From Flavobacteriales bacterium (GTDB lineage Bacteria; Bacteroidota; Bacteroidia; Flavobacteriales_D; UBA2798): a stretch of 64,000 nucleotides of DNA. Positions 1 to 500 of the stretch are shown in pieces. The notes under the pieces were generated by a model. It worked only from the letters and a program-made list of their open reading frames with translations. It was not told the origin of the DNA and did no database searches. How positions within the stretch are numbered: the first letter of the stretch is position 1; each line of letters starts with the position of its first letter. Location: assembly GCA_019694795.1 (NCBI GenBank), contig JAIBBF010000009.1:1-64000 (forward strand), given 5' to 3'. A program made the translations under genes and the position numbers.

Positions 1-6
1 TTTTTG

Positions 7-86
7 TACCCGGGGTCGGACTCGAACCGACATGTCCGTGAAGACAATGGTGTTTGATGCCGATAGCTATCGGCACATCGTGTCTA
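7..86 (-). pseudogene. broken tRNA-Leu copy interrupted by a palindrome
   Basis: Positions 1-57 repeat the 3' half of the intact tRNA-Leu gene at 418-500 base for base, including the run just past the tRNA 3' end. The match resumes for 11 bases at 76-86 (D-stem/anticodon side). Between these blocks, three bases of the anticodon stem-loop (GTC in tRNA orientation) are replaced by an 18-bp perfect palindrome. The 5' third of the tRNA, including the acceptor strand, is missing, so this copy cannot fold. The stop codon of the adjoining GIY-YIG gene lies inside the remnant. I read it as a relic of a duplication or insertion event at the tRNA gene. Confidence 0.85.
58..75. repeat. 18-bp perfect palindrome inside the tRNA-Leu remnant
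   Basis: TGCCGATAGCTATCGGCA equals its own reverse complement over all 18 bases. It sits exactly where the anticodon stem-loop of the tRNA copy is broken. From general knowledge, similar CCGATAGCTATCGG palindromes recur as dispersed elements in Bacteroidota genomes; I cannot count other copies here and see no second copy in this window. Confidence 0.8.
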
Positions 87-368
87 TCTATACTTAGAAA
101 TAAGCTTCTCTACCATTTCAGGATATTTTTTCAGGTTTTGAATGTAATTTTTGCTCTTCATCCGTTTAATATGAGATTCCATTTTTAATGCGGTGCCAAG
201 TGGTAAATCAGAAATTTCCAGATAAAGCTCCCAATCAGAGTATTTTGCTGTATAACTATTTCTAAATTCCCTGGACAGATGGTATTCAATTCGCTTTTCC
301 AGATCTTTAGTCACTCCGGTATAATATTTACCTGCGGTAAAAGAAAAAAGAATATAAACGCTAGCCAT
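84..368 (-). CDS. small GIY-YIG nuclease-domain protein
   Basis: The 94-residue protein is a stand-alone GIY-YIG domain (UvrC/Slx1-like nuclease fold) of the short UPF0213 type. The two signature strands are seen as VYI near residue 4 and YYTGVT near 15. The conserved arginine follows in the DLEKRI helix and the metal-binding glutamate in ALKMESHIKR. No DNA-binding domain is attached. The gene lies between an intact tRNA-Leu gene (and its terminator) and a broken copy of the same tRNA, and its TAG stop codon is supplied by that broken copy. Such ORFs are often annotated as endonucleases, but biochemical function is unproven for most. Its position suggests it is, or was, part of a mobile unit targeting tRNA genes. 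Confidence 0.85.
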   Translation of the reverse strand: MASVYILFSFTAGKYYTGVTKDLEKRIEYHLSREFRNSYTAKYSDWELYLEISDLPLGTALKMESHIKRMKSKNYIQNLKKYPEMVEKLISKYR

Positions 369-382
369 TTTTTCGCAAAATT

Positions 383-416
383 AAAAAAGCAGAGCTCTTT
401 CTGAACTCTGCTTTTT
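383..416 (-). terminator. intrinsic terminator after tRNA-Leu
   Basis: An 11-bp stem (384-394 with 406-416) encloses an 11-nt loop and ends in T runs on both strands. It directly follows the tRNA-Leu 3' end on the minus strand and separates the tRNA from the GIY-YIG gene. Confidence 0.75.
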
Positions 417-417
417 G

Positions 418-500
418 TACCCGGGGTCGGACTCGAACCGACATGTCCGTGAAGACAATGGTGTTTGAGACCATCGTGTCTACCATTCCACCACCCGGGC
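418..500 (-). tRNA. tRNA-Leu(CAA)
   Basis: The 83-nt minus-strand sequence folds as a type II tRNA. The 7-bp acceptor stem closes with a G1-U72 wobble and discriminator A73. The anticodon stem is ATGGT/ACCAT around loop CTCAAAC, giving anticodon CAA (UUG codons). A long variable arm (TGTC/GACA stem) and a T-loop with GGTTCGAGTCC are present. CCA is not encoded. A terminator hairpin follows. Immediately upstream, 506-525 is an ATGACC/GGTCAT inverted repeat of unknown role. Confidence 0.95.

Follow-up and report, generated by a model that had tools for sequence, protein, structure and literature searches.

Why should the gene of a small GIY-YIG nuclease stand between an intact tRNA-Leu gene and a second copy of that gene broken by a perfect palindrome? 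This question is raised by the first 500 positions of the window, that is, the whole stretch of 64,000 nucleotides of a Flavobacteriales genome that was analysed. An earlier note, made from the letters alone, had read the place as a minimal mobile unit of nuclease and palindrome that duplicated or homed into a tRNA gene while leaving a working copy. The elements it described, including the nuclease stop codon inside the tRNA remnant, were all present:

417 to 500, minus strand: intact tRNA-Leu(CAA), the upstream member of the unit (ARAGORN; Rfam RF00005, 55.6 bits)
383 to 412, minus strand: intrinsic terminator-like hairpin separating the tRNA from the nuclease gene (read directly as AGCAGAGTTCAGAAAGAGCTCTGCTTTTTT on the minus strand)
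84 to 368, minus strand: GIY-YIG nuclease open reading frame (ORF) of 94 amino acids, a single compact domain (PF01541, E = 2.8e-9)
76 to 86, minus strand: 5' piece of the tRNA-Leu copy, tRNA bases 19-29, an exact match to the intact gene
58 to 75, no strand assigned: perfect 18-bp palindrome TGCCGATAGCTATCGGCA, in place of tRNA bases 30-32 (GTC)
6 to 57, minus strand: 3' piece of the tRNA-Leu copy, tRNA bases 33-84, with no difference from the intact gene
1 to 127, no strand assigned: assembly overlap, the same 127 bases lying at C111:3617 and C111:4028

The minus-strand order is intact tRNA-Leu(CAA) (500-417), terminator, GIY-YIG ORF (368-84) and tRNA-Leu copy. The broken copy retains only tRNA bases 19-29 and 33-84, the stop codon of the ORF (TAG, 84-86) is formed by tRNA bases 19-21, and positions 1-57 are exactly identical to positions 412-468. 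The two tRNA-Leu copies are identical, with no foreign half visible in either, and DNA and tRNA searches of the genome found no other intact close copy of this gene. The window starts at a contig end, and its first 127 bases recur at two places in contig C111 that are 411 bp apart and enclose one further nuclease gene. The locus is therefore an array of identical 411-bp units in tandem, at least two in number, each comprising the tRNA-Leu 3' part with its palindrome, the terminator and the GIY-YIG gene. This leftward extension, which the note had proposed, also answers its question of whether the terminator is duplicated: it is part of every unit. Thus, the mobile-looking unit of nuclease and palindrome with a working tRNA gene preserved stood, but as an array and not as one triplet. 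The GIY-YIG ORF is the only ORF of the 411-bp unit, which holds no tyrosine or serine integrase.

Palindromes in this genome were counted by pattern search. The core of the window palindrome, CCGATAGCTATCGG, was confined to the array (3 of 3 places), so that the widespread occurrence without GIY-YIG genes or tRNA copies that would have spoken against the note was not observed. Palindromes of the type CCCGA..TCGGG were enriched (25 places, against 2 in the control); they were dropped as evidence, at least one of them (window position 1334) being visibly a terminator. Past the last unit lies a distal terminator, ACAGAGCGAGAATG...CATTCTCGCTCTGT, which differs from the one beside the intact tRNA-Leu gene and by eye resembles the terminator following a tRNA-Leu(TAA) gene of another family (L186), which the one beside the intact gene does not. 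On this one comparison, the difference would be in keeping with a native end displaced to the downstream side and with an end beside the intact gene that was imported.

When the broken copy was folded as RNA, no tRNA fold appeared and its stability was not significant (z = -0.72). A tRNA-like RNA function was not favoured by this result, which is weak evidence, the intact gene itself reaching only z = -1.66 in the same test. A clean empty site was also sought for the window, and the tRNA-Leu(CAA) gene of a genome of the same family (G002) was not in a matching gene context. In that genome a 5' fragment of tRNA-Leu lies upstream of an intact tRNA-Leu(CAA) gene devoid of a nuclease (L183); its D loop has a palindrome that includes CCGATAGCTATCGG, and the fragment is probably the scar of a lost cassette. 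Draft contigs often end within or near such arrays (e.g., G000:C9, C111, and C73; G001:C46 and C81), and the number of copies, and even of occupied tRNA genes, is probably under-counted in draft assemblies.

The nuclease and its spread at tRNA genes

The window nuclease retains the catalytic residues Y5, Y16, G18, R26, H30, and E64, and its AlphaFold2 model (pLDDT 93.7) is one compact GIY-YIG domain, so that both the fold and the catalytic Y, Y, R, H, and E place it in the GIY-YIG superfamily. By sequence and by fold its closest counterparts were UPF0213, SLX1, and I-TevI, with modest E-values for the fold matches. Across 153 proteins (108 + 45) the catalytic residues were retained with few exceptions, and one close pair of nucleases gave a dN of 0.036 against a dS of 0.38; on these grounds, selection appears to keep the nuclease active. 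Decayed nuclease genes with stop codons were present as well. The window protein had no match by tblastn in 50,697 phage records, and no vehicle of transfer between species was found.

Such nucleases also adjoin tRNA-Phe, tRNA-Ala, tRNA-Asp, and tRNA-Met genes of the same genome, amounting together with tRNA-Leu to 5 of its 36 tRNA matches. A profile built from 19 proteins of this kind was searched against the class (Bacteroidota, 149 genomes) and the phylum Patescibacteria (145 genomes), and matched 102 and 105 genomes, respectively. The loci examined were mostly the better-scoring matches, with others hand-picked from the same lists, and were not a random draw; among them an intact tRNA gene lay within 300 bp at 81 of 100 Bacteroidota loci and 30 of 46 Patescibacteria loci, and a further 8 of the 100 Bacteroidota loci ended near a contig edge. 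The linked tRNA was on the strand of the nuclease gene in 111 cases and on the opposite strand in none. Low-scoring, UPF0213-like GIY-YIG genes were at a tRNA gene in only 1 of 12 cases, and that one is a member of the family interrupted by a stop. Tandem arrays reached 10 near-identical units (L085, period 457 bp), and tRNA-linked members were also found in Ignavibacteria (L193 and L198). tRNA-Leu is no special host: cassettes occur at Phe, Met, Asn, Ala, Val, Pro, Arg, Asp, Ser, Thr, His, and Leu tRNAs. The triplets of tRNA, GIY-YIG gene, and palindrome that the note had advised looking for in related genomes were thus recovered in dozens of genera.

The broken tRNA copies have a strict polarity. 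Of the tRNA ends reached by upstream fragments, 50 were 5' and 5 were 3'; for downstream fragments the counts were 75 for the 3' end and 3 for the 5' end. Exact stretches of the tRNA are exchanged for palindromes, usually with no stray bases, at positions 26-35 in Asn, 29-45 in Val, 36-41 in Ala, and about 38-48 or 36-40 in Met; others lie between positions 22 and 23 in Arg, in the D loop (about 14-17), or in the T loop (about 55-62). The palindromes vary in loop length and sequence, and their arms stay perfect. A palindrome abutted a tRNA fragment at 67 loci, at least 2 of these palindromes being merely terminators; considering that only about 1.6% of random positions abut such a palindrome and that the arrangement recurs in dozens of genera, chance is excluded. 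Where a second tRNA 3' end was present in the class, the 45 bases following it were closely repeated at 23 of 46 loci and in none of 85 controls; the remaining loci, at which these bases differ, fit older or imported units. There are also arrays composed of 5' fragments only, upstream of an intact gene, such as 8 repeats of 74 bp at a tRNA-Val gene (L010). A guide-RNA reading of the fragment arrays was dropped, the repeats having no variable spacers between them.

Occupied sites, empty sites, and target specificity

The comparison of empty sites that the note had called for was possible at the tRNA-Met(CAT) gene of Aquimarina, where the terminator follows the gene directly in most species and a cassette is present in two. 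These loci are homologous tRNA genes with matching promoters; their flanking genes are not common to all, and the loci are not fully syntenic. Free-standing homing endonuclease genes typically occupy a given site in some lineages and leave it empty in related ones, and tRNA-Met of Aquimarina has this pattern. In each of the two occupied species the duplicated terminator is that of its own intact gene, and the terminators differ between the two. Being the species' own, the duplicated 3' part is local in origin, as would be expected from repair or recombination at the site. In the Aquimarina group, two further loci downstream of tRNA-Met (L276 and L279) have solo tRNA 3' ends with repeated terminators and no nuclease gene; they also have an insert of the GTTTACCCTGAG..GAAGGG type.

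The clearest sign of a cassette bringing a substitute for the gene that it breaks comes from an 818,817-bp contig of Patescibacteria (G235). Its native tRNA-Val(GAC) gene is split in the anticodon arm, in the order GGGACGGTTAGCTCAGTTGGTTAG / TCCCGATT - nuclease - intact tRNA-Val - AATCGGGA / TGACGTGCGAAAGG...CCGTCCA, and the inner tRNA-Val, of a different sequence, is the only intact Val(GAC) among 40 tRNA matches. The combination of an apparently foreign intact gene or 3' half with a native remnant was seen in Patescibacteria at L211/L321 and, judged by eye, at L209, L220, and L235; the last three have an arrangement like that of G235 at tRNA-Ser.

Nuclease lineages follow the tRNA. On a tree of 112 nucleases there were 29 changes of tRNA isotype, against 64.1 with shuffled labels; the nearest nuclease from a different host family was at the same isotype in 51 of 83 cases (shuffled mean 8.7, maximum 18), and for none of 35 nucleases was the nearest relative found within its own genome. 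Moreover, nuclease identity correlated with the tRNA position of the palindrome, both within an isotype (r = 0.48, the same site rising from 14% to 70%, p = 0.0005) and between isotypes (r = 0.21, from 7% to 33%, p = 0.0005). The isotype and within-isotype correlations could partly be products of vertical descent of whole loci; the between-isotype correlation counts most, because shared descent of a tRNA locus cannot yield it. For instance, the sister nucleases L040 (Phe) and L088 (Val) both have TCCGCCGCGGCGGA-type palindromes in the T loop, and the lineage of the window nuclease has CCGATAGCTATCGG-like palindromes in Leu, Phe, Asn, Thr, and Met tRNAs. The palindrome is no fixed common part of the cassettes: its sequence and tRNA position vary with the lineage of the nuclease. 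Since nuclease similarity predicts this position within and between isotypes, we read the palindrome as a mark of the nuclease's target.

Proposed mechanism and competing explanations

Our preferred explanation, to which we give a probability of about 60%, is that the locus belongs to a large family of minimal selfish cassettes built around a free-standing GIY-YIG homing endonuclease, each targeting and replacing one tRNA gene, with the palindrome marking the destroyed target. The sequences themselves show the layout, the specificity, the polarity, occupied beside empty sites, tandem arrays, and, in one Patescibacteria genome, the replacement of a native tRNA; cleavage of tRNA genes, homing, immunity through the palindrome, and amplification driven by the nuclease are what we infer from them. 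First of all, the nuclease would cut a tRNA gene that has no cassette, in the D, anticodon, or T arm and at a place that depends on the nuclease lineage. An occupied copy would then serve as template for repair, which would restore a full tRNA gene and terminator and import the nuclease gene, pushing the old tRNA 3' part downstream or, in other layouts, leaving the old 5' part upstream. With a palindrome in place of the cut region, the displaced parts would be uncuttable and could serve as homology arms, and later cutting and unequal recombination would lead to tandem amplification such as that in the window. In the broken copies the presumed site is replaced. Several observations stand against the homing explanation: the presumed target is still present in the intact tRNA beside the nuclease, which requires some limit on self-cutting; the two tRNA copies of the window are identical and reveal no foreign half; simple target destruction does not explain where the palindrome comes from or why its sequence recurs; some Patescibacteria loci have no tRNA and instead carry inverted repeats around the nuclease gene; and the searches for a phage match of the window protein and for a vehicle of transfer found none. 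A broader version is that the cassettes act as a cut-and-replace gene drive on tRNA genes, bridge homing endonucleases and transposons through inverted-repeat (palindrome) ends, and have entered structured RNA genes of the rnpB kind; this we offer tentatively and consider doubtful as a whole. If the gene-drive reading were true, destruction of a single-copy tRNA gene together with supply of a substitute would make loss of the element costly or lethal, and in Bacteroidota and Patescibacteria few small mobile elements would be commoner than the cassettes.

The main rival is a minimal DNA transposon. Its transposase would be the GIY-YIG protein and its terminal inverted repeats the halves of the palindrome; an unsplit palindrome would have arisen where the cargo was lost and the ends stayed behind, joined. 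Its best examples are the tRNA-less loci of Patescibacteria (L226, L239, L241, L243, and L257), intergenic units of about 350 bp that resemble a minimal transposon and in which the nuclease gene is bounded by CCCCGTAGA or CCCCGTTAGA inverted repeats. A split tRNA gene in which TCCCGATT and AATCGGGA bound the nuclease and tRNA on either side (L211), and a similar locus (L253), point the same way, as do two insertions of inverted-repeat-flanked GIY-YIG genes near the 5' end of the RNase P RNA gene, rnpB (L217, around 990-1790; L244, around 850-1764). However, a transposon would not explain why fixed tRNA bases are replaced by palindromes or why the Bacteroidota nuclease gene lies outside unsplit ones, and the repeats are not dispersed: in the window's genome CCGATAGCTATCGG stays within the array, and the rnpB repeat is found at rnpB only, bar two inexact matches. 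We know of no GIY-YIG transposase, and a transposon seems to us unlikely as a general account; homing and transposon-like forms may nevertheless be stages of one system. The place of the L217 and L244 insertions is apparently the P3 arm of the RNase P RNA, and L217 has a second, gene-less inverted-repeat insert in the same RNA.

Less probable still is a structure-specific, Slx1-like nuclease that recognises folded DNA, either the hairpin of the palindrome or the cloverleaf of the tRNA, the tRNA copies being kept as its substrate. In its favour, UPF0213 and SLX1 are the nearest solved relatives, and the palindromes combine perfect arms with variable loops and sequences; but a pure reader of structure would have no need of a tree that follows the tRNA isotype, and each nuclease has its own exact site in the tRNA. 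A domesticated host or defence device, for example one that adjusts tRNA dosage or offers broken tRNAs as decoys to tRNA-cutting nucleases, finds a parallel in phage T6, where tRNA amplification driven by SegB overcomes a tRNA-cutting defence (PMC13096335); it is very improbable here, considering that the extra copies are broken and add no tRNA, that presence is patchy even within one genus, and that decayed nuclease genes exist. Ordinary tandem duplication and decay of a tRNA gene with the nuclease gene as a passenger, akin to the unrelated tandem duplication that the note had named among its refuting findings, accounts for the commonness of near-identical-unit arrays and is scarcely credible in view of the 111:0 strand bias, the isotype specificity across host families, the exact palindrome replacements, the strict fragment polarity, and the purifying selection on the nuclease.

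Relation to known systems

One of the two closest precedents for the homing explanation is SegB of phages T4 and T6, a free-standing GIY-YIG homing endonuclease that cuts within tRNA genes at the motif RAWTSGAAC and drives tandem amplification of a segment of tRNA and nuclease genes (PMC13096335). The motif looks like the T-loop read backwards. The end of the SegB gene shares microhomology with the 5' region of the tRNA, and its authors raise the same question of how the intact tRNA escapes cutting (PMC13096335). As with SegB, our GIY-YIG genes lie beside tRNA genes, at the proportions given above. The tandem arrays of the cassettes may likewise be products of their nuclease. However, SegB is phage-borne and palindrome-marked split tRNA copies have not been described for it, whereas the cassettes are chromosomal in Bacteroidota and Patescibacteria, their lineages are tied to isotypes, and the window protein lacks a phage match.

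Replacement of a gene end is known from fungal mitochondria, in which mobile ORFs carry a substitute for the end of Allomyces atp6 and of Glomus atp6, atp9, cox2, and nad3; the endonuclease gene lies downstream of the restored host gene and the displaced native 3' end further downstream (PMC3630166). These elements are mostly LAGLIDADG, the one of atp9 being GIY-YIG, and no palindromes were reported in them (PMC3630166). The cassettes share with the Allomyces atp6 type the duplicated 3' part of the host gene downstream of the nuclease gene (75 cases against 3), but they occupy bacterial tRNA genes and form tandem arrays, whereas the mitochondrial hosts are protein genes.

Other comparisons are more distant. 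UPF0213 (YhbQ-like) and SLX1 proteins provide the closest solved structures to the cassette nuclease in sequence and fold; UPF0213 is nevertheless separated from it by profile score, and its genes in the same genomes are rarely at tRNA genes (the 1 in 12 above). Integrase-type islands and prophages in tRNA genes likewise keep the tRNA intact and leave a 3' copy at the far end, but the cassettes have no integrase, measure about 0.4 kb as a whole unit, carry a palindrome in the copy, and also leave D-arm and 5' fragments. In REP/RAYT systems, too, short palindromes are linked to a nuclease-like gene; unlike these, the cassettes have palindromes that do not occur outside them, and a GIY-YIG nuclease in place of a Y1 transposase.

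A full-text literature search, covering open-licence papers, returned no description of chromosomal, tRNA-linked, palindrome-marked GIY-YIG cassettes, and searching the 2006 survey of the GIY-YIG superfamily by terms brought up no tRNA link of this kind. The family is very widespread and apparently undescribed: the profile matched nucleases in about 70% of the genomes sampled from two major bacterial groups, and of the nucleases examined the majority are located at tRNA genes. Cassettes of this kind could lie behind tRNA pseudogenes, odd palindromes, assembly breaks linked to tRNA genes, and the replacement of tRNAs in both groups. The nucleases are very small (about 80-100 amino acids, with no extra DNA-binding domain), and, each being apparently tied to an isotype and an exact place in the tRNA, they form a panel with which target recognition by GIY-YIG proteins is directly testable. 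For gene drives in which an essential gene is cut and replaced, the cassettes also offer a natural model.

Among the loci with other host genes, a tmRNA gene was followed directly downstream by a GIY-YIG gene in Aquimarina brevivitae (L206) and at two loci of Patescibacteria (L227 and L246). At another Patescibacteria locus (L225), the tRNA-Asn gene beside the nuclease gene seems to be split by an intron-like insert of the group I type.
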